From assembly GCA_963402885.1 (NCBI GenBank), contig OY727099.1, positions 15,016,001 through 15,080,000 on the forward strand: DNA of 64,000 nucleotides, in the 5' to 3' direction. This document shows positions 1,812 to 54,009 of this stretch, in pieces (within the stretch, counting starts at the first letter, position 1; every line of letters starts with the position of its first letter). A program made the translations under genes and the position numbers. This DNA comes from Antedon bifida (taxonomy: Eukaryota; Echinodermata; Crinoidea; Comatulida; Antedonidae). A model generated the notes under the pieces. The model worked only from the letters and a program-made list of their open reading frames with translations. It was not told where the DNA came from and ran no database searches.

Positions 1812-1890
1812 TTCTTGTTGCTTTAGGTGTGAATAAATACCAAAAAATTTTTGCAGCCTTCTAGAAGTTGCTGCGTTAGTGAGATATTGA

Positions 1891-1910
1891 GGGTCAAAGG
1901 TCAGTGACCT
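1891..1910 (+). promoter_or_regulatory. AGGTCA DR1 plus IR1 cluster in element D
   Basis: GGGTCA-A-AGGTCA (1891-1903) overlaps AGGTCA-G-TGACCT (1898-1910): a direct repeat with 1-bp spacing and an inverted repeat with 1-bp spacing. A further IR1 lies at 2062-2074. The mirrored cluster in the right arm is at 12733-12752. These match nuclear receptor half-site geometry (RXR/HNF4/COUP-TF type). Binding is inferred from motif only. Confidence 0.45.
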
Positions 1911-2529
1911 TTTTGTGGCATTTGATGGCTCATAACTCCTCAACTCCTGGGTTTAAAAAGACAAATGTGGTGTCTACATCTATGTTTTAGTGGTCAAACA
2001 ACAAAATAAAGTTTTTGCAAATTTCGGATTACTTGTGCCATTGGTCAGATAGTCGGATCAAAGGTCATTGACCTTTTTTCATTAATAACTACTGCTAGTC
2101 TAGGACCTTGGTAAGATTTGTATGCATTCAATTTAGGAGAGAATATCTTAACTGTTATAGGATAATTAGACCCCAAGGAACAACATGGGATATGCGCCAA
2201 ATTCGTTATCTGGGGCGAACATGCCCAAAATCGGGGTCAAAGGTTAGAAATGTGTGGTTCTTATATCTCGACAACCACTTGTCATACAGATTTGCTTTTG
2301 GTGTCAAATTGTTCAGAATATACATATTTATATTCAGTCTAAGACAACTTTTACCCCAAAAAATGACAGGAAATGCTTTTACTGACCTTTGACCAAAAAA
2401 CACATTTTCGGGTTAAATTATTCTTTAAAATGTCAATGGACACACTGTATGGTATAAAATGAAAGCATATACAATATGCTACCCATTGCTACCCAACTTG
2501 TATTGAAAATTTTTAATTAGGAATATAAC

Positions 2530-2776
2530 TGTGATGTTATGTCTTTGTTTGTACACAACAATATAATATATAAATGAACGAAGACGTTAGTTTGGTTTGG
2601 TAGATGTTTATTGTAGCTCAGCAATATAGCAAGTGGTTATGAAACATTAGTTATCATTACTAATACGTCTGGTATGTGGTTGTCATGGCTATGAGGATAG
2701 CTAACCTAGATACCTGTAAGGTGTGTGGACCTGTTGAACCTGTAAGTTCAGTCACTTGTAATGTAATATCATTACA
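2530..2776 (-). repeat. LTR of retrotransposon 1 (3' LTR)
   Basis: 247 bp, begins TGTGATGTTATG and ends ATCATTACA. Near-identical to 7098-7344. The adjoining AAAAGAGGGAAGA on the minus strand is a good polypurine tract. Confidence 0.92.
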
Positions 2777-2981
2777 TCTTCCCTCTTTTGAAAGTTAAAA
2801 TATTTTTCTTAGTATTCTTTTAAATCCGTTATTTATGTATCCATAGTTCATGCATAAGATTTCAAGAGTATTATACTTAGATTTTTTTTTTTTTTTTTTT
2901 AATATTTTTATCTTGTTATTTAAATTTATTTATGTACATGCTAGCATTATTCATAAGTCGTTGCATAATTATCTATATACA

Positions 2982-5660
2982 TTATATTTTGTCTGTAACA
3001 TAGTCGTCTAAGTATGCTGGTCGTCGGGCTTGACGTCGTGGTCGGCTTTTATCGGTAGTTTGACCATTTCTGTCATTTGTAACCGGTACGTCGTCATCCG
3101 AGTCATAGTCGTCATTGTCATATCTGTCAATGGATGGTATTGGCATGATGTGCCTTCTGTTCCGTCTATAGATATCATTTCCACATTTCACAAGATAAGA
3201 TTTATGAGGTAGTGATTTGTGAATTGTTCCAACTTTGTTCCACAACTTAGATGTTGTATCATATACTCTAACTTTCTGTCCGTATTGTATGGTTTCTAGA
3301 GTTTTTGAATGTTTGTTATAGTTCCGCGCTTGTTTTTGCTTTAGCTCATCCTTCTTTTCCTTTAATTCAATAAGTTTTGGTTTTAGCGCTGACTCATTAA
3401 CTGGGAGGTTTGATCTGATTTTCCTTGAGAACATCATTTCTGCTGGACTAAGTCCATGCTCGAGTGGTGTAGCACGATATATCTGTAGTGCTAAGTATAT
3501 ATCTTCCTTTGTCTCTGTACATTTCTTGATAATTCGTTTGACTATCTTTACTGCATTTTCAGCTTGTCCATTTGACTGCGCAAAATATGGACTGGAAGTT
3601 GTATGTTCAATGTTCCATTCGTTGGTGAATTTCCGAAATTCTTCACTGACGAATTGTGGACCATTATCAGAAAAGAGTACAAATGGTGTACCATGTATCG
3701 CAAACCATGATTTCAGTATGTTGATTATAGCTGCTGAAGATGAACTTGTTAGTTGACGAACTTCAATGTATTGAGAATAATAGTCAACACATGTGATATA
3801 ATTGTTATTGTTTACCGTGAAAAGATCAACCCCAATTTTTTGCCATGGTTGGGTGTTATTGGCTGCATATATCATTGGTTCCTTTGGTTGCATTGGTTGG
3901 TGTTTCTGGCATGTCGGACAAGATTTTACTTTGTCATCTATGTCCTTGTTGATGTTTGGCCAGAATATTACTTGTCTAGCCCGTCTCCTGCATTTTTCGA
4001 TACCCAAGTGTCCAGTATGGATTTGCTTAAGCATGTCCTTTGTCATTTTAGCAGGTATTACAATTCGATCACCTTTGAATACGAGATCGCCTTTTATTGA
4101 TAGCTCATCACGATAATTCCAGTAATCTCGTGTTGCTGGGTGGCATTTGTTTCGCTTGTTAGGCCATCCTTGTTGAATTGTGCGATTCAGTTCTCTTATC
4201 GCTTCATCGTTGCCTGATTCAACTTCAATTTCATTGAGTTTTTTGTCAGTAGTAGGTAGCGCTGCAATTATTGATTGTACATACATATCAATTTCATCAT
4301 TAAATTGTTGCTCTAACGACAGTTGGTATGTCGAGTCAACTGCTCGTGAAAGAGTATCCGCTGTTTGGAGTGATTTTCCAGGTACATAGATTATCTTTAT
4401 GTCGTACTTTTGCAGACGCAATCGCATTCTTTGTAGACGCAGAGGTCCATCCGCTAGCGGTTTCGAGAAAATTGATACAAGTGGCTTGTGATCAGTCTCG
4501 CATATAACTGATTGTCCATAAAGAAATTGGTGGAATCTTTCACATGCAAACATTGTGGCTAGGCACTCTTTTTCAATTTGTGCGTACCTTGTTTCTGCTG
4601 AGGTCATTGCTCTTGAGGCATATGCTATTGGCGCCCATCTATCATTGTGCTGTTGGAGTAGAACAGCTCCGATGCCATCCTTTGATGCATCCGCACTGAC
4701 TTTGCATTGCTTGTTTGGATCATATAATTGCAAAACTGGCGCAGTTGTCAGCAGCTTGTTAACTTCTCTCCAAGCATTATCTTGGGATGTTTGCCATACC
4801 CAGACTACGTTATCTTTCGTCAACTCTCTTAGCGGAGCAGTTATGTTTGATAAGTCTGGTACGAACTTTGCTAGGTATGTGACCATGCCTAAGTATCGTT
4901 GCATCTCGAGCTTGGTTGAGGGTTGTGGCATATTTGTTATTTCCTTAATTTTCTCTGGATCTGGCTTTATGCCTTTATCTGTCAGTAAATCACCAAGGAA
5001 TACAACTTGCTTGACACAGAACTCACATTTTCGTTTGTTTAGCTTTATGCCGTTCTTCTCTATGATGTCAAGTACTTGGCTTAATGTGTCTCTATGTTCT
5101 TCAATTGTTTTAGATGATATTATGATGTCATCTTGCATTGAGTTTACTCGTGGTATGTTTTCCAACAAGTTGCTAATTGCCACTTGGAACCCTTTGCTTG
5201 CGCAGTTAATTCCAAATGGTAAACGTTTGAAGATGTAACGTCCCACAGGTGTAATAAAGCATGTTAGTTGAGCACTTTCGTCATCGAGAGGTTGCTGCCA
5301 ATATCCTGATGTGAAATCTAGTTTTGTAAAAAATTTAGCATCAGCGAATTCGGCCATAATTTCTTCCCTCGACGGTAGCTTGAAGTGTTCACGCTTTATG
5401 GCTTTATTGAGATTTCTAGGGTCAAGGCATAGGCGAATGTCACCATTCCGTTTGTTCACGGTAACTATGTTGCTTACCCATTCAGTTGGTTCCTGAATTT
5501 TTTCTATCACACCAAGCTGTTCCATGCGGTCAAGTTCCATTTTAACTTTATCTCTTATCTTGAAAGGGTATTTTCCGACAAGGACTTTGAACTGGTGGAA
5601 TCGATTTGTCAGTGTGTATGTGATACTTCCTTGGTAAGCACCCAAGACCTTTGAAGACAA
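2982..5660 (-). CDS. pol: pol of LTR element 1: RT, RNase H, integrase
   Basis: An 892-residue frame of an old virus-like element. Near the N-terminus it shows Ty3-type RT signatures (LDFTSGYWQQPL, RLPFGINCASKGFQ, DDIIISS), then RNase H (residues about 290-410, VSADASKDGIGAVLLQ, YAQIEKECLA, ETDHKPL), then integrase with an H2C2 zinc finger (HTGHLG ... CPTCQ) and a D,D-35-E core (GVDLFTV, FSDNGPQF, YFAQSNGQAEN). The C-terminus is acidic then basic. The product would copy element RNA and insert it. It follows the protease block at 5548-6378 and overlaps it in another frame, as in many Ty3 elements. Confidence 0.92.
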   Translation of the reverse strand: MSSKVLGAYQGSITYTLTNRFHQFKVLVGKYPFKIRDKVKMELDRMEQLGVIEKIQEPTEWVSNIVTVNKRNGDIRLCLDPRNLNKAIKREHFKLPSREEIMAEFADAKFFTKLDFTSGYWQQPLDDESAQLTCFITPVGRYIFKRLPFGINCASKGFQVAISNLLENIPRVNSMQDDIIISSKTIEEHRDTLSQVLDIIEKNGIKLNKRKCEFCVKQVVFLGDLLTDKGIKPDPEKIKEITNMPQPSTKLEMQRYLGMVTYLAKFVPDLSNITAPLRELTKDNVVWVWQTSQDNAWREVNKLLTTAPVLQLYDPNKQCKVSADASKDGIGAVLLQQHNDRWAPIAYASRAMTSAETRYAQIEKECLATMFACERFHQFLYGQSVICETDHKPLVSIFSKPLADGPLRLQRMRLRLQKYDIKIIYVPGKSLQTADTLSRAVDSTYQLSLEQQFNDEIDMYVQSIIAALPTTDKKLNEIEVESGNDEAIRELNRTIQQGWPNKRNKCHPATRDYWNYRDELSIKGDLVFKGDRIVIPAKMTKDMLKQIHTGHLGIEKCRRRARQVIFWPNINKDIDDKVKSCPTCQKHQPMQPKEPMIYAANNTQPWQKIGVDLFTVNNNNYITCVDYYSQYIEVRQLTSSSSAAIINILKSWFAIHGTPFVLFSDNGPQFVSEEFRKFTNEWNIEHTTSSPYFAQSNGQAENAVKIVKRIIKKCTETKEDIYLALQIYRATPLEHGLSPAEMMFSRKIRSNLPVNESALKPKLIELKEKKDELKQKQARNYNKHSKTLETIQYGQKVRVYDTTSKLWNKVGTIHKSLPHKSYLVKCGNDIYRRNRRHIMPIPSIDRYDNDDYDSDDDVPVTNDRNGQTTDKSRPRRQARRPAYLDDYVTDKI

Positions 5661-6378
5661 CGTTAGTTGTGTTTCGTTCCACTGTATTCAGTGACGCTTC
5701 CTCAAAGTTTGGTATTATTAGTTGTAGCTGCAAACATGTATCGGCACTTAATAGTGGTTTATAATTTGTCAATTTGTCATCAACTATGTATACTGCAAAT
5801 GTTCCTTTACGATCCTTACTGTACGCTATGTCCAGGTTGCATTTCCCTGAAATTGGGATAGCAGCATCAGAGTAGCTTTTGACTGGCGTACTTACGGGAA
5901 TGAGGAGTGGTTTGCTGTTCAGTTTGCTGTATTCCGTGTATGGCAATATGTTAACTTTTGCCCCACTGTCAAGTAGAAATACAACTTTGTTGTTGTTTAT
6001 GTCAAGTTGACAGAAAAATCCATGGGAGGGTTTTGAAATGGCGTTACACTCTATTTCAATTGTGTTCAATAGAAAGGTTTCCTCCTCAGATTCCGATTCC
6101 GATGCCACAACCACATTCGCTCTTTTAAAGCTTTTGCTGTGATATTTGTGTTTATCATCTTTTGCGTGTTTCTTTGCGTAGCTTGTTTTCGTTGTGCAGC
6201 ATTTTCCGAAGTGATTGCGCCCGTTGAATTTGTCACATATTTTACCAAATGCTGGACATGATTTTGGTCCATGTTTTGTGGCACACCTTCTGCAGTCAAA
6301 GTGTTTAGTAGTGCTCCTTTTTGAGTTACTATGATTATTCATGCTCAATGCATTTAGTTGACTTGCCGATGCTTGCAA
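5548..6378 (-). CDS. Zinc knuckle and aspartic protease block of LTR element 1
   Basis: A 276-residue frame. An N-terminal Cys/His cluster (CRRCATKHGPKSCPAFGKIC) is the nucleocapsid-type knuckle of mag elements. A retropepsin motif FLLDSGAKVNILP follows around residues 130-143. The C-terminal part runs into the RT N-terminal region. It lies between gag and pol and would process the polyprotein. Assignment rests on motif and order. Confidence 0.85.
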   Translation of the reverse strand: MQASASQLNALSMNNHSNSKRSTTKHFDCRRCATKHGPKSCPAFGKICDKFNGRNHFGKCCTTKTSYAKKHAKDDKHKYHSKSFKRANVVVASESESEEETFLLNTIEIECNAISKPSHGFFCQLDINNNKVVFLLDSGAKVNILPYTEYSKLNSKPLLIPVSTPVKSYSDAAIPISGKCNLDIAYSKDRKGTFAVYIVDDKLTNYKPLLSADTCLQLQLIIPNFEEASLNTVERNTTNVVFKGLGCLPRKYHIHTDKSIPPVQSPCRKIPFQDKR

Positions 6379-6393
6379 CGTGTCATCACTAAC

Positions 6394-6933
6394 TTATTGA
6401 TTTTGTGCAATGCTGATTGCCTTATCCAGGGTTAGATTGTCCCCTTCATCCATACACTTTTCCTTGACTCTGGGATGAATGGCTCTCAGTACAATAGCAT
6501 CGCGCAACATCCTTTCCTCTAGATCGCCATAGTCGCACAATTTTACAAGAATTCTAATGTCCGTCAAAAAGTCATTAAAATTTTCACTTTTGTGCTGGCA
6601 TCTTTTGTGGAAGTCTATTGTTGCTTTGATCACGTTTCGCTTGGGTTTTAGGTAATTTTCAAACTTATTTAAAACCCCACTCAGCATCTCGTTTTCTGCA
6701 GGTATTGCTGCTTGGTCACCATTTTCGGGCTGAGCTGCGGCCCATACAAATGTCCCATATATTTCTCGTCCACGGTCCCCAATATAAGTCATTAAATAGT
6801 TAACTTTTTGTATTTCCGTCTTTGCGCCTAAAGGACCATCAAACGTGAATTGACAGTGTTGTTTGAACCGTTTAAATTCTCTCAACAAATCTGGTGATGC
6901 CCAGTCCATTGCTGGTTTATTCTTGTCGGCCAT
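6394..6933 (-). CDS. gag: gag capsid-like region of LTR element 1
   Basis: A 179-residue frame starting MADKNKP with the retrotransposon gag pattern (FKRFKQHCQFTF, YLMTYIGDRGREIYGTF, KRNVIKATIDFHKRCQ, FNDFLTDIRILVKLCDYGD, MLRDAIVLRAIHP). It is the first frame after the 7098-7344 LTR, which fits a gag role: capsid assembly of the element's particles. The zinc knuckle lies in the next frame, starting right after. Confidence 0.88.
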   Translation of the reverse strand: MADKNKPAMDWASPDLLREFKRFKQHCQFTFDGPLGAKTEIQKVNYLMTYIGDRGREIYGTFVWAAAQPENGDQAAIPAENEMLSGVLNKFENYLKPKRNVIKATIDFHKRCQHKSENFNDFLTDIRILVKLCDYGDLEERMLRDAIVLRAIHPRVKEKCMDEGDNLTLDKAISIAQNQ

Positions 6934-7097
6934 TGTTAATGTGTTATAAAATAAAGTTACTCACAGACCTTGATATTATCCACTGAAGCAAGAAGAGTCC
7001 AAAGATCGAGGTCTAACTTCAATATGCCAATGAAAAAATTAATCCGATGATAACATAAAATATATCCACATTAAATTGGTTCGAATTTCTGACACCA

Positions 7098-7344
7098 TGT
7101 GATGTTATGTCTTTGTTTGTACACAACAATATAATATATAAATGAACGAAGACGTTAATTTGGTTTGGTAGATGTTTATTGTAGCTCAGCAATATAGCAA
7201 GTGGTTATGAAACATTAGTTATCATTACTAATACGTCTGGTATGTGGTTGTCATGGCTATGAGGATAGCTAACCTAGATACCAGTAAGGTGTGTGGACCT
7301 GTTGAACCTGTAAGTTCAGTCACTTGTAATGTAATATCATTACA
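7098..7344 (-). repeat. LTR of retrotransposon 1 (5' LTR)
   Basis: 247 bp, same ends as 2530-2776, about two mismatches between the two. Followed inward by a primer-binding-site-like TGGTGTCAGAA on the minus strand, and outward by the ATAAC target duplication. Confidence 0.92.
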
Positions 7345-7404
7345 ATAACTTTATGGAAAATGTGCATAATTGACTTCAGTATTTAGAATTATTATTTATT
7401 ATTA

Positions 7405-8412
7405 ATTTATCTTTATCAACTGGTACGACCTTTCCTGATGATTTGAAGTTGGGTCTAGTTACACTTATTTTAAAGAAGCCTTCACTGGATCATACTTGCA
7501 TGGCAAATTTTTGATCTATTTCTAATGTCGCTTTCTTATCTAAGATCCTTGAGAAATGCGTTGCTTTAGATCTCATACATTTTCTTGACGACAATAATCT
7601 GTTCGACCCTCTTCAATCAGCATATAGAAAGCACCACAGTACAGAGTCAGCCATTCTCAAGGTGCATAGATATTATTTTAGCTCTGGATAAAGGTACAGT
7701 AATTGTCTTTTTTCTGTGTACCTAGACCTGTCGGCAGCTTCTGATACCATGGACTATTCCATTATTATTGCATCCGTGGATCTGCTATAAATTAGTTCAA
7801 GTCATATTTGTCTTCTAGGAAGCAGCAGGTCCAGATTGGTAATGTCAAATCCACCTCTATCGACCTGAAATGCGGTGTTCCTCAAGGATCAATACTGTCC
7901 AGTATTGTTTTTAGTTTACATCTCGCCCATGAGTGATATCATTAAGAGACATTGTGTCCAATATCATGTGTACGCAGATGATACACAACTGTACATCAGC
8001 TTTAATTCAGCAGAGTTTAATGAGGCGAAGTCGGTTATCGAAGTGTTGTTGATGTTCAGGATTGGTTAACTAAAAACATGCTCTTTTTAACCCTGGTAAA
8101 ACAGAAATCTTATTTCTTCATTCAAAACACTTTAAGAAATTGGCCATTGCTAGAAACAACAATCACATCATCGTTGGAGGTTAGATATATCGGAGTTGTA
8201 TTTGATTCAGCAATGATTATGTCCAGACATATCAACAACATTAGTAAATCTGATACCTACCACCTTCGTAACATAAGATCAATTCGCAAATCCTTAACCC
8301 ACTCCTCGCTTATTAAACTTGTCCATGCACTAATAACATCACGGTTAGACTACTGCAATGCCATTTTGTTTGGTCTACCAAATAAAGAACTTAATAAACT
8401 ACAACTAAGTCT
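7405..8412 (+). pseudogene. Degraded L2/CR1-type LINE reverse transcriptase fragment
   Basis: Conceptual translation in shifting frames gives recognisable L2-type RT blocks: PDDLKLGLVTLILKKPSLD, FLSKILEKCVALDLIHFL, QSAYRKHHSTESAILKVH, YHVYADDTQLYISF and ITSRLDYCNAILFGLP. Stops and frameshifts are numerous (for example a stop within the MANF*SISN block). Endonuclease and 3' tail are absent, so this is an internal piece. It forms the spacer of long-TIR element D, so D either captured it or received it as an old insertion. Confidence 0.8.
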
Positions 8413-8449
8413 TTTCTTTTTTATACCAAATATTTCATTACAACGCTAG

Positions 8450-9104
8450 AATTATTTCACCCAAAATAAACTTACATTAATTTATACTCATTTTTGTCTA
8501 AATTTAATAAAATATATGCATATTTTCCAAAAATAACATCACATAATTTAATACAAGTTAGGTAGCTATGGATAGCATATTGTATGTGCTTTCCTTTGAT
8601 ACCAAATATGTCTTTTCAAACATTTGAATTATTTAATATCATAAATAAACCAAAATAAATTATCTGGTAATGTATACCCATTTTTGTCAAAAAGCAATAA
8701 AATATGCACATTTTTCACCAAAGTAGCATCGTAATTACAGATTTTTATTACAAGTTAGATAGCAATGGATAGAATATTGTATGGGCTTTTATTTGATACC
8801 AAATAGTTCTTCCAAACACTTATTTAAAATTATTTAATATTATATAAATAAGCACAACAATTACGCTACTAAATATTCATTTTTTGTATAAAAGTAATCA
8901 AATTAGGCACATTTTCCATAAGATTAGATTCCTAATTAAAAAATGTTCAATACAAGTTGGGTAGCAATGGGTAGCATATTGTATATGCTTTCATTTGATA
9001 CCATACAGTGTGTCCATTGACATTTTAAATAATAATTTAACCCAAAAATGTGTTTTTTGGTCAAAGGTCAGTAAAAGCATTTCCGGTCATTTTTTTGTAA
9101 ATAT
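8450..9104. repeat. Sub-repeats in right arm of element D
   Basis: Three copies of a roughly 200-bp unit, each with a TACAAGTT(A/G)G(G/A)TAGC(A/T)ATGG(A/G)TAG core followed by CATATTGTAT/GATACCA, near 8550, 8750 and 8950. The last unit is the reverse complement of 2430-2530 and runs on into GGTCAAAGGTCAGTAAAAGC, matching 2370-2400. No gene is seen. Confidence 0.7.
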
Positions 9105-12100
9105 AATAATATAAATATATATGTAAATCGCTTATTACAGTAACCATACGGCATGTTTTAGTATTGATATCTTGTCTGCTGGTGATATTGAAACAAATCC
9201 AGGTCCAATGAATTCCAGAATGAAAGATTTAAACGAAATCCACCGACCCAACAACATAAAAATCGCTATGTTCAACGCCCGAAGTATTGCTAATAAAATC
9301 CAGGATCTTCAAGTACGGATAGAAAATAATGTTGATATAGTGTTGTTGACTGAAACATGGTTGGATCCAACGATTAAGAGTGCAGAGATTTTCCCGTTAG
9401 ATTACTGTGTTCATAGAAACGACAGAAAAAGACACGGTGGTGGTGTTCTGATAGCATGCAAAAATTCTATAGATGTATTACCTGTGGACATTGACACTAA
9501 TATTGAGGTTCAACTGGCTGAAATCCATGTATCTGGAGAGAGTATTCTGCTTGGCTGTGTTTATAGACCCCCGAGTTCATCAAGAGAATGGTTAACCAAT
9601 TTTCAAGAACTCTCAGACAATATACTCTCCATCATGCACAAATATACTGCTGTGATCATCGCTGGTGATTTCAATTATGACTTTAGTTCGAACTCGAACT
9701 GTAATATTGAGTTTGAAAATATAATGTCATCTCTTAATCTTGTTCAACTTGTAAATTTTCCTACCAGATATGCAAATAATGGATCACATTCTATGTTAGA
9801 CCTTGTGTTCTGTAATAATAATGACATTATTCATAATGTCACAGGTGAACCTGGAATTAGTACAAGTGATCATATAGGTATCTTCTTTGACTTAGCTGGA
9901 CGGTTGGTCTGTCCTAAACAAGTTCCTAGATATTTTTATCAATATAAAAAGGTTAATCATGATGATTTTTTCCAAACTCTTAATTCAGTCCCGTGGGATC
10001 TCTGCTTTACGCAGCTTAACTTAGATTCCACTTGGGCTTGTTTTAAAGACCTTTTTCTAGCCGCAATTGATGATTGCATACCCAAAGCTAAAAGCAAACC
10101 TCGCAGAAAATCAATCTGGATAACAACTGAAATTATTAAAATGTCTCGTAAAAAGAGACGCCTTTATCGAGATGCAAAGAAACATCCGAATAACATGTAT
10201 AAGTGGGAAAAATACAGAAAATTTAGTAACGCATTGCGTGAAACTACGAGAAAGTCTCATTATGATTACCTCCATAATCTTAGTTTAGGCTGTAAATCTA
10301 ATCCTAAACGATTTTGGTCATATGTTAAGAAAAAACGAAAATGTGCAACAGAAAGAAAGTATACTTTAAACGGCAATATCATAGACTCAGATTTAAATGC
10401 TACTAAAGCATTTTCGACATATTTTCATTCTAATTTTACTGAAGATAATGATGATTTCAATGTAACAAACGAAACATCTTATTGTAATCACAGTGAAACT
10501 GTCTTACCTTTAACTAGTATTGTCATCAATAGGGATCAAATTTTCCGTGCTCTGTTATCTTTAGATACTAATAAATCCCCTGGGCCCGACGGGATTACCC
10601 CTATGATGTTGAGTATGGCTGCACCTGTTATATCCCCAATTTTGCTCAAAATTTTTCAAATGTCCCTTGACCAAGGCATTGTGGTGAAGGAATGGAAATT
10701 GGCCAATGTTGTACCAATTTTTAAATCTGGTAGTAGAAATGATATAAGTAATTATAGACCAATATCACTTTGTTCAGTTGTTGGCAAAGTTCTAGAACGT
10801 ATAGTGGCTGATAATTTTTTATTTCATCTTCAATGTAATGCGTTTGTTAGTCCTGTACAGCACGGGTTCTATCCTGGAAGATCTTGTGTTACACAAGCTT
10901 CATCCATATACCACGAATGGTCCAAAATATTAGATGGTACGAACCCACCAGTCGTCGATGCTATATTCCTTGATTGGGAAAAAGCATTTGACCGTGTGAG
11001 TCACCCTAAACTATTACGTAAGCTCCACAATTTTGGTCTATGTGGTCCAATTTTGAAATGGATGGGCTCATTTCTTACTGATCGTTGCCAACAGATTGTC
11101 CTTAATGGACTGATATCTGACCGTACACCTGTTGTTTCAGGTGTACCTCAAGGGTCGGTACCTGGCCCATTACTTTTCAACTCGTTCGTTTTTGACCTCC
11201 CTATGTCGATCACCTCTCAAATTAGACAATATGCCGACGATACGGTGGTGTTTAGGCCAATTAGATGTGAATATGATGCGATATTACTTCAAAAAGATCT
11301 AGATAACATCGATGAATGGTGTCAAAATAACATGATGAGACTTAATGCTAAAAAATGCAAAGTTCTCCATATTACTCGCAAACGTAATCCCATTCATGCT
11401 CGTTATCATATTCACACTAATGACCTTCAAGCAGTTACCTCCTACAAATATCTTGGTATTCACTTTGAAAGCAATCTCTCTTGGTCAACGCATGTGTCCG
11501 CAATTACCACAAAATCTCTCCAAATTGTCGGATTCAGAAAGCGTTTTGTGATATTTAACGACCCTGTAATTTTGATGAGGCTTTTTAACGGTTTATGTAG
11601 GCCCATACTTGAGTATGCTGCCCCTGTTTGGGTGCCTCATCAAAAACAACATATTACTAGCATAAATAAACCTCTTCGAAGGATCACAAAATTGTGTGCT
11701 AAGGGCGATTACGAGCAACGACTCGAACATTTAAATTTGACATCTATGGACCAGAGAGTGTGTTTTCTCAGTATACTTTTTATTATGAAATGTTTGTATG
11801 GTCGAATTGATCTTAATATTCACGAGTTTGTTGATTTTAATCCAAGGTATTCCGAATCAGTTATTTTTAAACACAAATATGCCAGAACCAATTCTTTTAA
11901 ATATTCATTGTACACTAATTTTCCCCGTGTATGGCAAGAGATTCCTAATTATATTAGAGAACATTCTTTATTTAGTTTTAACACATTTGTGACAGCTCTC
12001 CGGTCTTATGTCAGGCAACTTTAAACTTTTTATCTTTTTTTTATCTTTAAACAATCATTTTTATCTGTACATAATATTTATATATATATATTTTTTAGAT

Positions 12101-12300
12101 TCAATTTTAATGATTGTTCAACTTGATGCCTCGCAGTTTTAAAATTTTTATATCTTTGTTTTTTTATGGTTTACTTATATGTTCAAGTGCAGTATATGGA
12201 GAGCCATCTCGATAGTGCTTTGCACTCATGGCAATCCTCAGGGTGCTGCACCGCTGTCTTGTTGTTATGTATTTTTGTGCCTGAAAATTGAATAAAATAA
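9105..12300 (+). mobile_element. CR1-like LINE with N-terminal 2A-like motif (LINE 2)
   Basis: A non-LTR retrotransposon inserted into the right arm of element D: sequence on each side (to about 9104 and from about 12305) continues the arm. The 3' end is an AATAAAATAAA-type simple tail (12288-12320), as in L2/CR1 elements. The 5' end appears truncated: the open frame begins at 9127 after a stop, with no ATG before the 2A-like motif. The EN-RT frame itself has no interruption, so the copy is fairly young. Confidence 0.85.
9172..12024 (+). CDS. LINE 2 endonuclease-reverse transcriptase, 2A-like N-terminus
   Basis: About 950 residues in one frame, open back to 9127. The N-terminus reads SAGDIETNPGP, an exact match to the 2A ribosome-skipping consensus D(V/I)ExNPGP. 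AP endonuclease follows (FNARSIANK near 34, TETWLD near 62, AGDFNYD near 165, TSDHIGIFFD near 232), then RT (SPGPDGITP near 470, NYRPISLCSV, HGFYPGRSCVTQ, GVPQGSV, YADDT near 686) and a C-terminal region. It nicks DNA and copies LINE RNA at the target. The start is uncertain: the first in-frame ATG follows the 2A proline directly (PGPMNS). In family members 2A sits after an N-terminal leader that is missing here. A nearby oddity is GSVPGPLLF where GSVLGPLLF is usual. Confidence 0.9.
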   Translation: MSAGDIETNPGPMNSRMKDLNEIHRPNNIKIAMFNARSIANKIQDLQVRIENNVDIVLLTETWLDPTIKSAEIFPLDYCVHRNDRKRHGGGVLIACKNSIDVLPVDIDTNIEVQLAEIHVSGESILLGCVYRPPSSSREWLTNFQELSDNILSIMHKYTAVIIAGDFNYDFSSNSNCNIEFENIMSSLNLVQLVNFPTRYANNGSHSMLDLVFCNNNDIIHNVTGEPGISTSDHIGIFFDLAGRLVCPKQVPRYFYQYKKVNHDDFFQTLNSVPWDLCFTQLNLDSTWACFKDLFLAAIDDCIPKAKSKPRRKSIWITTEIIKMSRKKRRLYRDAKKHPNNMYKWEKYRKFSNALRETTRKSHYDYLHNLSLGCKSNPKRFWSYVKKKRKCATERKYTLNGNIIDSDLNATKAFSTYFHSNFTEDNDDFNVTNETSYCNHSETVLPLTSIVINRDQIFRALLSLDTNKSPGPDGITPMMLSMAAPVISPILLKIFQMSLDQGIVVKEWKLANVVPIFKSGSRNDISNYRPISLCSVVGKVLERIVADNFLFHLQCNAFVSPVQHGFYPGRSCVTQASSIYHEWSKILDGTNPPVVDAIFLDWEKAFDRVSHPKLLRKLHNFGLCGPILKWMGSFLTDRCQQIVLNGLISDRTPVVSGVPQGSVPGPLLFNSFVFDLPMSITSQIRQYADDTVVFRPIRCEYDAILLQKDLDNIDEWCQNNMMRLNAKKCKVLHITRKRNPIHARYHIHTNDLQAVTSYKYLGIHFESNLSWSTHVSAITTKSLQIVGFRKRFVIFNDPVILMRLFNGLCRPILEYAAPVWVPHQKQHITSINKPLRRITKLCAKGDYEQRLEHLNLTSMDQRVCFLSILFIMKCLYGRIDLNIHEFVDFNPRYSESVIFKHKYARTNSFKYSLYTNFPRVWQEIPNYIREHSLFSFNTFVTALRSYVRQL

Positions 12301-12304
12301 AAAT

Positions 12305-13977: not shown

Positions 13978-13982
13978 ATCAG

Positions 13983-32961: not shown

Positions 32962-32964
32962 TAG

Positions 32965-35498: not shown

Positions 35499-35501
35499 AA
35501 G

Positions 35502-36092: not shown

Positions 36093-36106
36093 CATTGTCT
36101 GTAGGG

Positions 36107-43089: not shown

Positions 43090-43182
43090 CTAGATTGAAA
43101 AGAAAAGTTGTAGTAAAAATTATTTCAACGTATTTGTTTTCAGAAAAAGAACAACTATGAAAGACGCATACTACTGTACTAC

Positions 43183-43231
43183 GTAACAAATATTTGGCTT
43201 CTTCCGTTAAAATCATGCTCTCAATTGACAT
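43183..43231 (-). CDS. Tandem DED-like gene, first coding exon
   Basis: ATG at 43231 gives MSIESMILTEEAKYLL; a GTAGTA donor follows after 49 nt (phase 1), and removing a roughly 93-bp intron joins cleanly to LRDFIFIYIKAEF in the next exon. The uninterrupted frame reading through this intron is less likely because the intron part is hydrophobic and unlike the domain. Confidence 0.5.
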
Positions 43232-44163
43232 TGTCTATAACTATTTAAAGTACCTTGCTTTGATGAGATGTGAACTAATAATAATTTCAAAGGAAAAAAT
43301 AGAAATATTATAATCACTGACATTAATATTTAGTTGCACAGTACTGTATGCATACTTTATTATGTAAGTATATCAATAGAAAAATATTCAATGTAAATTA
43401 TATCCATGACAGAACTGGTAATAAACCCTGCCAGGCATCATTGTAAAATGGTCTCCTAACACAAACATTACCCACTGTCCAAGAGCACCACAGCACAACC
43501 ACTCATCATACAATAAACTCATTTATATAGCGTAACTTTCAACATGCCAGTACATTAGTCAAAGTTTTTGAATAATCCAGTCATTGTGTACCATGATGAT
43601 CACCAAATGTCAAATTGGTTTCATAAACCGCCTATTATACCTAATGCAAACTATAGTCGCACTTTTATTTTTATCATCTGTTTATATCATTTAAAATGAC
43701 CTGAAACGTGTAGAAAGTTTAGAAATTTATTTTGAGCGAAAATACCAATGTTCAATATGTTTCTGATGATATAGAAAGATGACCCTTGACATGCAGTATA
43801 CGTGTGTCAAGTGGTATTTAAAAATATCTACGCGACCATATTTTCATTAAATCAAAGTTACGTGCACAAACAACTACATATATACGTGCATCTGCTGACT
43901 AAGTTACAACATAACTGCTTTCACTGTTTCAGAGATCTGACAAAAAATTTTTTACAAAAAATTATTATCTACTGAGAGCCATATCCTAATAATTTTTGGG
44001 TTGCTTAAAATTGTTGTAAGAGATTAGATGTTAAAGTTTTTTCAATTAGTCTCATAGGCTATGGGATAAGTGAACATTAGACATTAATATACATAAGTAT
44101 AATTGTAAGATCTGGAGTTTTGTTTGAAAACCAACCTTATTGGCCACAAAGAATACAACTTAC
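43232..44163. other. Spacer without recognised gene
   Basis: AT-rich DNA between the DED-like gene and the small exon at 44164. It could hold the promoter of the 43231 gene, but no clear core-promoter pattern was identified. Nothing else supported. Confidence 0.4.
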
Positions 44164-45310: not shown

Positions 45311-45328
45311 CTTGTACTTTATCATTAA
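45311..45328 (-). pseudogene. Displaced 3' end of the split TRADD-N-like exon
   Basis: TTAATGATAAAGTACAAG followed by the donor GTAATATTTG. Its TTA is the minus-strand view of the TAA duplication shared with 54010-54012. Phase 1 at the donor matches the phase-1 acceptor of the next exon (45129). Confidence 0.5.
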
Positions 45329-46024
45329 TAGTCCATGGGCCAGACATTTTTTCGGTATCAAATTGGTGGCAAATGCTACCATACATTTTTGGAAAGCTTA
45401 ATATGTCTACTTTTCAGAAATCCATGATAGCAATGCCAATTGTACAGCTTAATAGTCATTTTTGAGGATTATATAACACCGCCTACGGAAAATATGCAAC
45501 ACAAAATTTTGGGGTAGGGGGTAACACTTTTGCTATAACTCGGGATTTAATGAACGGACTTGCATTTTCTTGGTATCAATATGTAGTGTATAGACTGCTT
45601 AAGTGTAATATATTTTTCTAAGTAAATCCAACAATTATTGACGCCATTAGAGGTCAGAAGGTCATTGAACTTTAATAAAAAATGATTTTTTGTCTAATAT
45701 TAACTTATAAATTTCAGTTTTTAACAAAAAAAATACAATAGATGTTATGCAAACTGATGTTTTCATGAACATATAGACCCAATAAACAAGAAAATTGAAG
45801 TTAAAGATTAACAAAATATGAATATGCTGTGTATTATGAAGAAATTTGTTGTTTTTAGTAATTTGTAATCAGTTACAATTATGGGGTAGGGGGTAACATT
45901 TTTGCGAATAACTTACAATTTAGTTAACAGATTTGCATTTTCTTGCTATCAGTATGTAGTGTATAGATTGCCTAATTGTAATATACTTTTTAAAAATGAA
46001 TCCCGCATTTGTTGACATCTTTAG

Positions 46025-46045
46025 AGGTCAAAAGGTCACTGACCT
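46025..46045 (+). promoter_or_regulatory. AGGTCA half-site cluster in element C
   Basis: AGGTCA-AA-AGGTCA-C-TGACCT (a DR2 followed by an IR1). Similar clusters recur in other units: 45648-45668, 52915-52934 and 53281-53301 (AGGTCA-G-TGACCT-TT-TGACCT). Interpretation as nuclear-receptor sites is from motif only. Confidence 0.45.
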
Positions 46046-47394
46046 TTAATAAAAAATGCAATTTCTTCTAAATTAGCTTATAAATTTCAATTTTAAACAC
46101 AAAAATACAGGAAATCTTATGCAAACTAATGTTTTCTTAAACCTATAGACACAATAAATAAGAAAATTGAATTTAACATTTTTTCAAAATTGAATATGCT
46201 GTGCATTATAAAGAAACTTGTTCGTCATTAGTAATTTGTGACAATTATGGGGTAGGGGGTAACGTTTTTGCAAATAACTTAAGATTTAGTGAACAGATTT
46301 ACATTTTCATGTTATCATTATGTAGTGTATGGATTTCATTATTGTAATATACTTTTTAAAAATGAATCCAGCATCTATTGATGTCTTTAGAGGTCAAAAG
46401 GTCAATCAAAAATCTTCTAAATTAACTTATACATTTCAATTTTAAACACAAACTTACAAGAGATCTTATGTTGATGTTTTCCTAAACATATAGACACAAT
46501 GAATAAGAAAATTGAAATTAAACAAACAAATATTCTATGAATTTATGAAGACATTTTGTCCGTTAATAATAATTTGTTATTAACAATTATAGGGTAAGGG
46601 GTAACATTTTTTCTAATAACTTTGTATTTAGTGATCAAATTTGCATTTTTTTGTATTAATATGTACTGTGTAGGTTGCCTAATTGTTATATTCATGTTGA
46701 AAAAATAAAACGTAACATATTGACATCATTGTAGGTCAAAGGATCATTGAACATTAACAAAAATACAATTTCGTCCAAATTTAACATTAATCAAGTTTCA
46801 ATTTTAAACACAAAAATACAACAAATCTATTACAAACTGGGTTTTTTTTTTCAAACCTATAAAGACAATGTACAAATACAAATTAAAGTTAAAGATTACA
46901 CAAATAAACATGTATAGGCCCTAACAATATGAAAAATTTTGACCGTATTAGTAATTTGTAATCCTTAAAAATTATGGGGTAAAGGGTAACATTTTTGCTA
47001 ATAACTTTGAATTTATTATTATTTTATATTATTATTTATTTTTGCATTTCTTGGTAACAATAAGTAGGGTACTGTATAAACTGTTTAATTAAAAATTGTT
47101 ATATCAAAAAATTATGCAACATTTTGATCTCAAATAATATTACCAATAGTGGTTGTGTAGTTTTATTTAAAGCCTGTAGACAAAATTGTAGTATTTAGTG
47201 TTGTTGTGGGGTACAAAATAACATTATGCATGACTTGTTGGAGGGTATACATTATTGAAAAAAAAGTAATGATTTTGTTTTAATATGAGGATAGGAGCTT
47301 TATAAAAACATTTATTTCATCATGAAATTACAGGGTGGATAAACTATTTTAATATTTATCGTGATTATAAACTAAGTCTCACTTAAGGCTTAAG

Positions 47395-47510
47395 GATTGG
47401 AGTTGAAAGAGTCGTGAGTTACAAGCCTGGCACTAGGTCAGGCACTCCCCGGACCTTGGGATTGGAAGACAAGCACGTTAACCACCAAGCTACAGCTCCA
47501 CTACTTTAGA
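47395..47510 (-). mobile_element. tRNA-derived SINE-like fragment in the spacer of element C
   Basis: On the minus strand GGAGCTGTAGCTTGGTGGTTAACGTGCTTGTC resembles a tRNA 5' half with an A box (GTAGCTTGGTGG) and a loose B-box region (AAGGTCCGGG). Boundaries are uncertain and no duplication was found. It is probably an old SINE. Confidence 0.4.
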
Positions 47511-47519
47511 TAGGGTATT

Positions 47520-48905
47520 TGGTTATTTTTTAAAATACATATCCTCCGGCTACTGTTTTTAGACTATACTGTATAAATTGTTATTATTTTACAGATTGTA
47601 CTTTAAATCAATTAATCGACTTATATAGTAATTTTTAAAATGACACTAGGGCCTACCAATTAAATTTGTATTTAAAAGATATTCTTTTTCTATAAATGTT
47701 CATCTGACATTTTCCTGTATCTTGGTTTACAAAAAAGAACTCAGTAACAATATGTAAATGTTTCAGATCTGCATATCAGCTGCAGTTTAGCAATTCACAC
47801 TTTCTAGAAAAATTAATTCTATTATATTACATCGTCAAATTCCAGTAAAGCCTACATCATTTAAAACAACTGGGTATATATAGAAATCTTAAAAAGACAT
47901 GATTTTGTTATCGCAAACTGAATCTTGTGCAATGTTCCTTGACATTTTGGAATGTGATACTTTGCAAGTTTCCCGATTTTGATCAACTTTGATCAAATAA
48001 TATCTTTTAAAATGTTATGAAAAAGCTGACGAAAATACTATAACCAAGTACACTGGTACAGCACGTTATAGTCTTCAGTCTGTATTCTCTAGAGATGTGA
48101 AGGGCATCCAACAATGGATAGAAACACTATTTGGCTCAGTGGCGTCTGTGAGTAAAGAGGAAAATGTAAAGTATGCATGACAGTCTCTTCTGAAGATGTA
48201 CCAGATATGATTTTTCCTTCCTGTGTAAATTGTATTGACTGGACCTTCTCACCTAACTTTAGGTGGTTGTGTCGGAGTTATCCTCCAATATAATTAATTT
48301 CCATGTCAATGTCTCTCTCGACACAATATTTTGGGTCCTTTCCAGGAGTCCAGAAAATACAAAGAGACTGAAGACCGTAACATGTTGCACCAGTGTTCTT
48401 GCTTAAAACATTGGTTAATAGATATTAATGGTAACCTTGATCAAACTTACAACCACCTTCGACCATGCCAAGATACATGGCACATACTTCAAACTGCGAT
48501 ATGAAAACATAGAGATACCCAGTTCTTTCAAACGTATGTGGAAGATGTGGAACTGCAGCTAATATGAAAATCTAAAAAATTGACATATTAATGAGTTTGA
48601 ATAAACTTACTGTTTTCTTTAAATCAAGATGAAGTAAAATGTAATTGTCCTGTAATATTACAATACCATAACAGTTTTGTTTAGAAAACTATCTCATTTG
48701 CATTTGCAAACCAGATGAACACTTAGAATATCTTATCAGTTACAAATAAAAGATATAATTGGTAATCTAAACAATTTCTATGATTACTATAGACAATTGA
48801 ATGTTTAGAATATGTAAATTATAAAAAACAATTTACAACACAGAAGCTGGATGTTTATTATTATCAATATGTAATAACAATAAAACATCAAAGATATATT
48901 TATTA
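47520..48905. other. Spacer of element C, unidentified
   Basis: No long open frame. A short plus-strand stretch (48046-48175, translation includes YTGTARYSLQSVFSRDVK and GIQQWIETLFGS) has protein-like composition and may be a decayed exon captured by the element. I do not recognise it. Confidence 0.3.
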
Positions 48906-50639
48906 TCCTCATACGGTATTTAAAATTCATTTATTTTAATTAATAATAAATCAAATAATGTATACCTTCCAAAAAGTCATGCATTTTGTTATTTCGTACC
49001 CCATAACAATACTAAACGGTGAATTTTTTTCTATAGGTTTAATAAGTTAAAAACCACATCAATCTATTGGTAATAACATTTTGATAATTTTTTAATATAG
49101 CAATTAAACAGTTTATATACTACTTACTGGTTCCTAGAAATGCAAAATATGTTGACTAAATTCAAAATTATTAGCAAAAATGTTACCCCTTACCCCATAA
49201 TTTTTAATAATTACAAATTACTATTACGGTCACAATTCCTAATATTATTACACATGTTTATTTGTTTTTAATCTTTAACTTCAATTTCTTGTCCATTGTC
49301 TTTATAGGTTTTAAAAAAAAGTTAGATTTGGTGTATTTTTGCGTTAAATATTGAAACTTTATTAAGGTTACATTTGGACAAAATTGCATTTCTTTAAATG
49401 TTCAATGACCATTTGACCTACAAAGATGTCAATATATGTTACGTTTTATTTTTTCACAATAAATATAACAATTAGGCAACCTACGCAGTACATATTAATA
49501 CCAAAAATATGCAAATGTGATCACTAAATACAAAGTTATTAGGGAAAATGTAACCCCTTACCCTATAATTGTTAATAATACATTACTATTAACAGACAGA
49601 ATGTCCTCATAAATTCACAGAATATTTGTTTGTTAAATTCAATTCATTAGGCGCAGGAGCCCCGGATAGCGTTACGTTTGAAAACCCCAAAAAGTGAGGT
49701 TTTCAACCATTAGCGGCATGACTGATGTGAGTGATTAATGTGTTTTACGGACGGTTTCAAGGACTATCCTACCAGTGGGCTGTTCACTGGTCAAATGATT
49801 GACACTTTGTATCACCGTTTGTAACTGGAGCTGTGACGACCTTTGTAACTGGAGCTGTGACGACCTTGCAAGAATACTAGGCCAGAATTTTTAATTGAAA
49901 AGTGCCTTGGTATTAACATGGAGATGGAAACAAATTTTTCTATCTTTCTTTCTAAAATAAATGGTTACTATAGTTTCAAACTAGGCTTAGTCCACCACCG
50001 TAGTAATTACGAATCGAATTAAAATTGTTGGTATTCTTTGGCCGTTGTTTGATTAATTACATCTTCATGCCATGTTTTCTTTCTAATGATTTGGCGATAC
50101 GCTCCTATATTAATTAGGCCTACTAGCAGAGGGTTCGATGAGTTTTGAAAAGTTATGGAAATGTGGTCTAACATATAGAAATTCAGTTTTTAAGGCCCTT
50201 CTTCCATGTCCGAGCCTTTGGAAATATTAAAAAGTTATATTAATATAATATATTCTGTGTTTTCATGTTTTAAGAAATTATATATCATTTCAGATGTTTC
50301 GCGCTGCGTTTTATTTGTTTCGCGCTTCGTCTTCTTGGCAAAAGTAACCCTCGACTTCCGCTCGAGCTTTCTCCGTACATACCGATAATTAATATGATTA
50401 TTCATTTTTTGTACATTATTAAAAAATAGCATACAGAACCCCATACGGAACATACCCTGGAATAGCTTTGGAGACTTTGACTTTAGAGTAAATCGAAACG
50501 TCGGGCAACTCAACAGTTCTTTTCAGAACTAATATATGTGGTGTACCGCAAACTTCTATTAACAAATATGTAACTTGTTTAGCACGTTTAAAATGGATAG
50601 CAAAACATATTCAAAACAAAAAAACTTGAATTATTTCAA

Positions 50640-51250
50640 ACAGACAGCACATTAGTTTAAATGGATAGCACAATAGGTAGCACAATCAAATAGATATAAC
50701 TGTACTGTACATTCTATACGGATTATCGGGTAGCACATTCTTTCAAATGGATAGCACATTCTTTCAAATGGATAGCACATTGGGTAGCACAATCAAATGG
50801 ATATAGTACTGTACATTATTCTATAAGGATTATCGGGTAGCACATTCTTTCAAATGGATAGCACATTGGGCAGCACAATCAAATGGATATAGTACTGTAC
50901 ATTATTCTATAAGGATTATCGGGTAGCACATTATTTCAAATGGATAGTCACATTATTTCAAATGGATAGCACATTATTAGGTAGCACAATCAAATGGATA
51001 TAGTACTGTACATTATTCTATAAGGATTATCGGGTAGCACATTCTTTCAAATGGATAGCACATTATTTCAAAGGGATAGCACATTAGGTAGCACAATCAA
51101 ATGGATATAATTGTACTGTACATTATTCTATATGGATTATCGGGTAGCACATTCTTTCAAATGGGTAGCACATTATTTCAAATGGATAGCATGGATTGGG
51201 TAGCACAATCAAATTGAGCACATTGGGTAACACATTGTATCAAATGGGAG
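50640..51250. repeat. Tandem repeat of about 90-110 bp inside element F
   Basis: Five to six copies of a unit containing ATCGGGTAGCACATTCTTTC, AAATGGATAGCACATT, GGGTAGCACAATCAAATGG and GTACTGTACATTATTCTATA. Copy length varies through internal duplication of the AAATGGATAGCAC piece. Noncoding. Confidence 0.8.
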
Positions 51251-51284
51251 CCTAGTTATTCTATTGAATTGAATTGAAATATAT

Positions 51285-51450
51285 ATTTATACTGGGTAAC
51301 CTCTTCAGTCAAAGACTGGTCTCCCAAAGGGCCCAGCTGGTGATCAGTGGCTGCGATGTACTAATACACCGGGGTAACCCCCTACTCGTCTCGAAAGATG
51401 TACTAGGTTCTTTAAAGTGCACACGAGCTAGATGTGTATTCTATTATCGG
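51285..51450 (+). mobile_element. SINE-like block in element F
   Basis: Contains CTCTTCAGTCAAAGACTGGT, a GGGTAACCCCCTACT block and TTCTTTAAAGTGCACACGAG/CTAGATGTGTA, the latter being a motif I know from dispersed repeats in invertebrate deuterostomes. Ends and duplications were not found. Family uncertain. Confidence 0.35.
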
Positions 51451-54009
51451 GTGTAGCACATTAAAATTGAGAGGACATAAGATGGACACAATCATTTATT
51501 ATTAAGGGGCGAAACAGCCAATCCTTACTGAGGGGACACTCCTATAAAGGGGACATTAAGGGGACGGGGAACATTTAAGCTCAGTGCCAATGTTCACTCA
51601 ATATTTTTTCCATCACAAAATAACAAAAAAGACGAAATATTTATATCCATTTATCGCTATTAAATAAAAATGGATATTATAATAATTATGATACTTTGTC
51701 TGTCTTTGGTTTTCATTGGTGAAACGTTGCCTGCTACATTTTTAATTTCCGAGTCCAGATCAGTATTGGTATTGGTTTTTTTCTGCGAAACCTCTATGAA
51801 GAGGACATGTTTTTTTAGGAATTGTTCCAGGGGCAGTAGAACCCCTATTAAGGGGACACTTTCTACTGTATTTTTAACGGAGGATATCACAAATCAAGTA
51901 CGTGTTTCCAAGTACAGTACAGTGTTTAAAAAGAATTATTTCATTTAAATCTTGTTTAAAACAGAAATAGGTCTGTTTTGAATGGTTTTTGTTTTTTATT
52001 TGTTCTTTTCCCATGTGTTACTTGGCAATACAGAGATGTATTAGAAGGACAATTTTGGCGGGATGTTTGCATTGTCGCCCCTGAAACTTGTGACCTGAAC
52101 TGAAGAATATGGTATGTTGTTAGTGCTGAATTCTGTAAATTTTGTGTCATATCAACTGAGAATTTGTATCATTTCTGTAGGCCCAACAGTAAACATCATC
52201 GTTTTGGGCCGCCAATATAATTGACTATTTTTTCAATCACATTGTCAGAAAATGAAAATGTGATGTGAATATAACAATGGAGAAACTTTCATGGAGAAAT
52301 AACTTACTTATTTATAACTAACTTATTTTTCCGATCCGTGATATAACTAATGAAACAATGTTTAGAAAATGATATATCTGATAGATATCATCTAAGTGAT
52401 GTTTTACATATAACGTTTAACTTTTTTTTTTCATGTTCCATACATTCAATTCTTTTAATATAGTTCTTGTATAACACCATATCAAGTAGTAGTAAATATT
52501 ATTGTAGGGTTTTCTTATTATTTAGTCAATTCAGTGTTTCTATACAGAAAAGAGTAGTCAGTGGCCTTAACATCAATTAATTGTATAATTTGCACCCAAG
52601 GTCGAATAGCAAGAAACTCAGGTCCAGTTACATTGGTGTTCATTGGTCAATAGAAAATGAACAGCACACTTATGGGTGGTGACAAAGTTTAGTTATTGAT
52701 AAATTGTCCTTGGGAAAAACACATTAGTTGGGCTGACCATGGGCTGACAGAGTTAACGACTTCGTAACGCTATCCGGGGCTCCTGCGCCTAATGTTTCTT
52801 ATTTATTGTGTCTATAGGTTTAAGAAAACATTAGTTTGCATAAGATATCTTGTATTTTTGTGTTTAAAATTGAAATTTATAAGCTAATTTAGAAAAAATT
52901 GCATTTTTGATTAAAGGTCATTGACCTTTGACCTCTACAAGACATCAATAGATGTTCGATTCATTTTTTAAAAGCATATTACAATAAAGAAATCCATACA
53001 CTACATACTGATAACAAGAAAATGTAAATCTGTTCACTAAATCTTAAGTTATTTGCAAAAACGTTACCCCCTACCCCATTATTGTCAAAGATTACTAATG
53101 ACGAAAACATTTCTTTATAATGCACAGCATATTCAATTTTGAAAAAAAGTTAAATTCAATTTTCTTATTTATTGTGTCTATAGGTTTAAGAAAACATTAG
53201 TTTGCATAAGATATCTTGTATTTTTGTGTTTAAAATTGAAATTTATAAGCTAATTTAGAAGAAATTGCATTTTTTATTAAAGGTCAGTGACCTTTTGACC
53301 TCTAAAGATGTCAATAAATGCGGGATTCAATTTTAAAAAGTATATTACAATTAGGCAATCTATACACTACATACTGATAGCAAGAAAATGCAAATCTGTT
53401 AACTAAATTGTAAGTTATTCGCAAAAATGTTACCCCCTACCCCATAATTGTAACTGATTACAAATTACTAAAAACAACAAATTTCTTCATAATACACAGC
53501 ATATTCATATTTTGTTAATCTTTAACTTCAATTTTCTTGTTTATTGGGTCTATATGTTCATGAAAACATCAGTTTGCATAACATCTATTGTATTTTTTTG
53601 TGTTAAAAACTGAAAGTTATAAGTTAATATTAGACAAAAAATCATTTTTTATTAAAGTTCAATGACCTTCTGACCTCTAATGGCGTCAATAATTGTTGGA
53701 TTTACTTAGAAAAATATATTACACTTAAGCAGTCTATACACTACATATTGATACCAAGAAAATGCAAATCTGTTCATTAAATCCCGAGTTATTAGCAAAA
53801 GTGTTACCCCCTACCCCAAAATTTTGTGTTGCATATTTTCCGTAGGCGGTGTTATATAATCCTAAAAAATGACTATTAAGCTGTACAATTGGCATTGCTA
53901 TCATGGATTTCTAAAAAGTAGACATATTAAGCTTTCCAAAAATGTATGGTAGCATTTGCCACCAATTTGATACTGCTTTCGCAAAAAAATGGACCTGGCC
54001 CATGGACTA

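Follow-up and report, generated by a model that had tools for sequence, protein, structure and literature searches.

Foldback-type families of probable AcademX transposons with TAG...CTA ends in a crinoid genome

A stretch of 64,000 nucleotides from the crinoid Antedon bifida (assembly GCA_963402885.1, contig OY727099.1, positions 15,016,001 to 15,080,000; hereafter the window) contains four large elements, A to D, with long inverted arms. These elements most likely represent four non-autonomous families of DNA transposons with TAG...CTA ends and 3-bp target-site duplications (TSDs), which belong to the AcademX type and are now Foldback in architecture; we put the probability of this reading at about 0.8. 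It is carried by the conserved ends, the 3-bp TSDs, the spread of the families as whole units, the position of B inside a coding frame, at a 3-bp duplication, and the coding relatives linked to each family, all of which are observed here. An initial annotation, made from the letters of the window, had likened the four to Foldback/Galileo-type elements and taken their number to suggest a major unrecognised class. The reading as an unrecognised class is not supported: the genome contains coding elements of this type that agree with the known AcademX lineage, a name that is given on indirect grounds.

The genome searched comprised 315.6 Mb in 27 contigs. COX1, on contig C27, was compared with solved COX1 chains under three mitochondrial codes and scored highest with code 9 (885.9 bits, as against 872.9 for code 4 and 859.1 for code 5), which indicates a code of the echinoderm type, also used by flatworms. 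The searches scored a subset of the candidates, such as 40 of 166 in one arm search, and the counts are lower bounds. Genome searches with each arm found inverted partners in abundance, with at least 75 matches for A, 92 for B, 78 for C and 41 for D, several per copy. Forty loci with one or two arms were fetched (12 A, 10 B, 10 C, 8 D), and the complete copies among them measure 2.3-5.8 kb. All four families have the common TAG...CTA ends. Once the eight loci in which at most one end was recognised had been left out (four of A, one of B, three of D), 32 fetched copies and the four window copies made up a sample of 36 with both ends. When flanks of 1-10 bp were compared, a 3-bp direct repeat was found directly outside TAG...CTA in 25 of the 36 (A 3/9, B 7/10, C 10/11, D 5/6), where 0.56-0.72 copies would be expected by chance, and at 4-10 bp the flanks matched in none. 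The duplicated triplets are diverse: ATT, TAC, TAT, CTG, CAA, GCT, TTA, TAA, AAT, TTG, TAG, CTA, CAC, TCA and ATA.

The end patterns are also specific across the whole genome, with the reversed pattern as control. C ends occur 58 times exactly (control 0), B ends 44 times with at most one mismatch (control 0), D ends 34 times with at most one mismatch, 22 of them exact (control 1), and A ends 71 times with at most one mismatch, 24 of them exact (control 6). Paired ends up to 18 kb apart always face inward in these two families: C has 18 such pairs, spaced by 4.1-8.7 kb, and B has 13, spaced by 2.7-17.7 kb, with no outward pair in either. These inward pairs, together with the TSDs, bear out the view of the initial annotation that the elements are mobile families and not inversions. 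Solo ends, of the kind that had been named as a possible objection, do exist: 22 of the 58 C ends lack an exact partner inside 18 kb, and the other 36 make up the 18 inward pairs. Two short stretches bounded by inward D ends, C12:2377669-2377827 (159 bp) and C9:13218864-13219629 (766 bp), resemble miniature inverted-repeat transposable elements.

Within the window, self-BLAST recovered the inverted arm pairs of all four elements at E=0 or 1e-177, and tandem units were measured with Tandem Repeats Finder. The initial coordinates of A (26366-37069), B and C proved exact. The arms of A align at 26365-27120 and 37070-36338 (83.5% identity). The left arm (26366-27137, forward strand) consists of an end segment of 127 bp followed by about 4.2 units of 154 bp, and the right arm (36338-37069, reverse strand) has units of about 157 bp; the window copy is without a TSD here. 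Element B (30107-32961) is complete, with the TSD TAG, arms at 30120-30624 and 32962-32472 (86.7%) and, in each arm, tandem units about 140 bp long (140 and 132 bp by the program, right arm). Element C (45329-54009, TSD TAA) has arms at 45321-46510 and 54016-52795 (94.1%) with units of 366 bp in both. Alignment to other copies extends its left arm over 45329-47256 on the forward strand, while the right arm, on the reverse strand, is divided into an outer part (52791-54009) and an inner part (48954-49644).

Element D had been placed at 1812-12817. A real element with inverted arms lies there, but its span is 805-12875, as located by the end pattern from other D copies (ends TAGTACAGGC.../TAGTAGAGGC...), with CTA flanking both sides as the TSD. 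Self-BLAST pairs 1810-2331 with 12817-12312 (92.7%) and 2358-2528 with 9095-8924 (95.9%). On the forward strand, the left end (805-875, 100% identical to copy L023) is separated by an insert at 876-1809 from the inner part of the left arm (1810-2530, defined by self-BLAST and by alignment to other copies). On the reverse strand lie the inner part of the right arm (8411-9097), which carries tandem units of about 200 bp from 8406 (202 bp by the program), and its outer part with the end (12312-12875), supported by self-BLAST, the end pattern and copy alignment. Alignment to copies that lack them identifies three insertions in D: 876-1809; 2531-7344, a long terminal repeat (LTR) element of Gypsy type by its domains; and about 9098-12311, a long interspersed nuclear element (LINE). 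The first is about 930 bp long, with 78-bp inverted ends (883-958 / 1809-1732) and no long frame seen, and is a second DNA element, apparently of unrelated sequence or type.

The larger window sizes of A, C and D are thus due to LTR, LINE and other insertions. C is interrupted at 49645-52790, as judged from copies without the insertion, and A at about 27266-35508 by an LTR-type element within which B is nested. With the insertions subtracted, the lengths of D (about 3.1 kb) and C (about 5.5 kb) fall within the size ranges of their families, and A, at about 2.5 kb, is near its closest copy L019 (2,276 bp). B itself interrupts the pol reading frame of this LTR-type element, at a clean 3-bp duplication. 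The frames on either side of it (32959-33495 and 29492-30142) belong to one LTR-type pol gene, and the frame, read by eye at the flanks, stays in phase once B and one TAG are removed. The terminal direct repeats of the LTR-type element (27266-35508) are unusually short, at about 70-78 bp (core 27274-27342 / 35430-35498, CGCCAGT...ACTGGCG), and the element has RNase H matches above cut-off and integrase zinc-binding and aspartic-protease matches below it.

Units were mapped, counting matches of more than half a unit, in 27 other copies (6 A, 7 B, 9 C, 5 D) and in the window. They occur in both arms of A, B and C (window and 22 other copies), with 3-7 units per arm in A, 2-6 in B and 4-5 in C, and on one side of D, with 4-5 units (window and 5/5 other copies), as the initial annotation had described. 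The Foldback/Galileo-like architecture that it proposed therefore holds fully for A, B and C and by half for D. Arm distances were tabulated for 28 copies and three window copies, the D window copy being omitted. The divergence between a copy's own arms is 3.4-8.1% in 28 of the 31 (exceptions: L012, 0.5%; L037, 1.6%; L033, 18.8%), and that from the nearest arm in another copy is 0.2-4.4%, except for the left arm of L033 (15.2%). In 29 of the 31 copies, each arm has a closer counterpart in some other copy than in its own partner, and each family has therefore spread as whole units. Three points count against this reading: a single distance is compared with the smallest of many; between-copy arm pairs taken together average 3.8-5.6%, not far from the distances within copies; and some pairs of A copies (L009/L010; L019/window) derive from segmental duplication. 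The distances fit masters with already diverged arms that moved as whole units. The two copies that depart from this, L012 and L037, are consistent with one arm having now and then served as template for its partner; homogenisation of arms by conversion as a general rule is ruled out by the 29 copies. The closest C arms differ by just 0.6%, and movement has therefore been recent.

The absence of transposase noted initially was confirmed for the fetched B, C and D copies, in which no transposase match was found, but not for A. The interior of A is decayed protein coding, nearest to the protein of the coding element L062. In the window copy it lies at 35499-36258 on the forward strand (about 35499-35769 and 36118-36258) and represents a C-terminal part; such coding is also present in 11 of 11 A loci (L009-L019), and in L028 none was detected at E 1e-4. 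A genome search with a 161-aa fragment from A gave at least 119 matches (150 of 188 candidates scored), seven of which, among the matches listed, are in stop-free frames of 1,148-1,700 aa; a search with the central L061 protein gave at least 79 (77 of 225 scored). Loci with frames of 1,397 and 1,801 aa form two equal-score sets of three (C7:20482346, C11:26450921, C12:2352299; C8:6767678, C9:14741669, C12:12907817), which suggests very recent copies. The frame at C12:2352299 ends before the cysteine-rich tail described below.

Coding relatives with the same kind of ends, a search for which the initial annotation had proposed, were found as three elements, all with TAG...CTA ends and a 3-bp TSD. 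L060 has the ends TAGTGTAGGC, the TSD ATG and a frame of 1616 aa; L061 has the ends TAGACTGTGGGCC, the TSD TAA and a frame of 1524 aa; and L062 has the ends TAGTAGAGCAG, the TSD TAT and two frames of 824 and 601 aa. Their proteins share 23-29% mutual identity. The terminal inverted repeat (TIR) of L062 is 481 bp long (94%) and holds units about 149 bp apart. At L063 a B end is followed by three units and then by transposase coding, with a second, inward B end 14.6 kb away (C11:13613883-13628495). At L064 a C end (132 bp at 97.7%) is followed by a C array in the opposite orientation and then by partial transposase coding.

Arm comparisons by z-scores (60 shuffles each) link two of the families to coding elements. 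The D arm matches the L062 repeats at z=16.6, and the A arm matches one end of L060 at z=8.7, with the array in opposite orientation, and the other end at z=7.1; the remaining pairs tested reach at most 3.4. Common ancestry of all arm arrays is thus unsupported, as only A-L060 and D-L062 stand out. The four elements had been called unrelated, which is right for the arm sequences by these scores and not for the TAG...CTA ends and the transposase type, which are common to all.

The transposase most likely belongs to the AcademX lineage of the Academ superfamily, as judged from sequence features. Seven acids are invariant in the C-terminal part of 4/4 proteins (D83, D126, E222, D224, D246, D248 and D304, L060 alignment positions), with the pattern D-D-ExD-DxD-D, and six further acidic columns are also conserved. 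We take the order and rough spacing of the seven to be as in FEN/XPG nucleases (FEN1 positions). L060, L061 and L062 also have a C-terminal cysteine-rich tail, whose profile weakly matches the LIN54 CXC domain (E 0.017). According to the accessible text of PMC10045372, AcademX makes TSDs of 3 or 4 bp and AcademH of 9 or 10, a difference tied to the encoded nuclease or helicase. The TSD length lies within the AcademX range in 25 of the 36 long-armed copies (one ambiguous) and in 3/3 coding elements.

Several results weigh against this assignment and the wider reading. The Academ label is an indirect one. By hmmscan no Academ family is named and no Pfam domain lies above cut-off in the transposases, which give only a weak DUF6589 match below it (E 0.015), and sequence searches of the PDB with the transposases gave nothing firm. 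The AlphaFold models are poor, with mean predicted local distance difference test (pLDDT) scores of 44.2 and 33.6 (central region), and neither the central model nor the DUF6589 match gives firm evidence of a DDE transposase core. Foldseek, run on the poor C-terminal model (pLDDT 44), placed Rad2 (yeast XPG) at ranks 1, 6 and 8 and FEN1 at rank 13, but none of these hits reaches significance (best E 0.45). A 3-bp TSD is lacking in 11 of the 36 copies, including 6/9 in A, and that of L029 is ambiguous, since two left ends lie 30 bp apart and the copy counts only with the outer one. The tandem units of D are confined to one arm. L063 and L064 are broken, with a single end seen at L064, and the coding partners of B and C are candidates. 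A binding motif common to the families was looked for and none was found.

Three other readings bear on the origin of the elements. They could belong to another superfamily with 3-bp TSDs, such as Zator, CACTA/EnSpm or PIF/Harbinger, but we consider this distinctly unlikely. The TSDs are not limited to TWA, as the TWA target rule would have it (ATT, TAC, CTG, GCT, CAC and others occur); the ends read TAG...CTA and not CACTA as in CACTA/EnSpm; and hmmscan of the L060, L061 and L062 proteins revealed no transposase domain of these superfamilies at E up to 1. Zator also makes 3-bp TSDs, in the accessible account of PMC10045372, and the FEN/XPG-like assignment rests on indirect evidence. The arm pairs might instead reflect local inversions or palindromic segmental duplications, and some A copies indeed have common flanks by segmental duplication (L009/L010/L014 on the right, L019 and the window copy on the left), while L017 and L029 have inverted flanks. 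The solely inward end pairs of C and B on many contigs, the TSDs and the coding frame split by B make this reading highly improbable. It is refuted for B, C and D, and in A three of nine copies have a TSD; with the arm distances, the same evidence rules out inversion or solo repeats as a full account. A last reading would take D for two inverted LINE copies with LINE 3' ends as arms, since the LINE (open reading frame 9127-12024) stops where the right arm of D, as first noted, starts. This is practically certain to be wrong: there are four other complete D copies of 3.1-3.7 kb (L020-L023), three of which (L020, L022, L023) span the site without this LINE, and D has TAG...CTA ends with a 3-bp TSD in 5/6 copies.

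In the reading of AcademX-type transposons that we prefer, the long transposase would act in trans on TAG...CTA ends. B, C and D may have been derived by internal deletion, with other DNA filling the space between long TIRs. A, whose two arms both lead into C-terminal coding, would instead have formed when the C-terminal side of the element was copied in inverted orientation. The middle domain is variable: A has decayed transposase, and three D loci (L022, L024, L025) contain reverse-transcriptase pieces. The middle frames of B were suspected by eye to be of LINE origin but matched no Pfam family. Fragments of C-terminal coding also lie as inverted pairs in at least six more places, with starts 1.0-1.2 kb apart (two with equal scores, perhaps duplicates), a hint that other lineages may have given rise to palindromic derivatives as well. 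On a bolder and rather improbable view, the Foldback form would be a recurrent outcome of AcademX transposition, in which a flap- or structure-specific nuclease in the transposase makes and tolerates palindromic, repeat-loaded ends and gives many independent hairpin-armed lineages per genome.

The tandem units may hold extra transposase-binding sites, by analogy with the repeats of Galileo, which are bound by the THAP domain of its transposase (PMC3688188, accessible text), and their number could vary through unequal exchange and gap repair. That arrays can be reversed between related elements (C against L064, A against L060) would accord with binding in either orientation. The same reversals could also speak for long repetitive arms as passive by-products of slippage, unequal exchange or gap repair with no role in transposition, as could the variation of unit number among copies and arms, and no conserved binding motif has been demonstrated. 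Against such a passive origin, units are also present at the ends of the coding elements L062 and L063, and four families within 64 kb would seem many for a neutral accident. We hold the passive origin to be the less probable account of the arms, but one with considerable weight.

Foldback (FB) of Drosophila melanogaster and TU of sea urchin have long inverted arms of sub-repeats, as here, and Foldback-type arms also occur in Mutator-type elements. FB and TU have TSDs of 9 and 8 bp and other transposases, unlike A-D. A duplication of about 9 bp, typical of Mutator-like elements (MULE) and FB, was found in none of the 36 copies compared over 1-10 bp, none of which matches beyond 3 bp. Galileo, of the P superfamily in Drosophila, has a TSD of 7 bp as against 3 bp here, and a THAP-domain transposase, whereas the L060-L062 proteins are without a THAP match by hmmscan. 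Galileo resembles A-D in its long, internally repetitive TIRs, its two-arm copies and solo arms, and the rearrangement and exchange between copies (accessible parts of PMC3573991 and PMC3688188). Tetris of Drosophila virilis (PMC4079207) has an outer flanking domain, tandem units of about 220 bp and a variable noncoding middle, the same domain order as in B and C; its authors found no autonomous copies, at least in the accessible part of their report, whereas the ends of A-D have links to transposase coding. The same source, as far as accessible, names sea urchin as a Foldback host.

A-D and their relatives resemble AcademX in the 3-bp TSD (3 or 4 bp in the accessible text of PMC10045372), the one very large protein and perhaps, if the D-D-ExD-DxD-D acids mark an XPG-like nuclease domain, in that domain, and differ from it in the arms of tandem units and the palindromic derivatives. 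Partial literature searches on Academ and on foldback elements found no report joining the two, and the word foldback is absent from the accessible part of a bivalve survey with many Academ elements (PMC10294476). The combination of Foldback architecture with Academ-type elements therefore appears new. If the Academ assignment is true, Foldback-type arms evolved again outside the P-type (Galileo) and Mutator-type elements, in an unrelated superfamily and in several families of one genome. Apparently recent copies and long open transposase frames coexist in this genome, and the long-standing question of whether sub-repeated arms are selected as transposase-binding arrays or are repair accidents would thereby become testable. 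The ends and the TSD rule allow annotation of such elements instead of 'unknown repeats'.

Other features of the window were also recorded. A 77-bp satellite of about 20 copies (37070-38593) begins exactly at the right end of A. L019, the close copy of A, has the TSD CTA and different DNA at its right flank, and in the window copy the right flank has therefore been lost precisely where the transposon ends, which could be due to aberrant transposition or later expansion of the array. The satellite as a product of A is unsupported: among the fetched loci it was found in the window alone, and no link to the A units was shown. Among the transposons, at 25807-26325, 39535-40815 and 42533-43234, are frames that resemble death-effector domains, with weak Pfam matches that stay below cut-off, and a leucine-rich-repeat frame in which LRR_1 is above cut-off. 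They resemble immune receptors of the NLR type, and the leucine-rich part is a 177-bp tandem repeat. A nested tandem array (50630-51247; periods of about 21, 86 and 107 bp, unit near TAGCACATTNTTTCAAATGGA) lies within the insertion in C. A 38-bp satellite unit forms two arrays, 58329-59020 and 62918-63207, which are 3.9 kb apart and flank frames that look LINE-like by eye (59844-62347).

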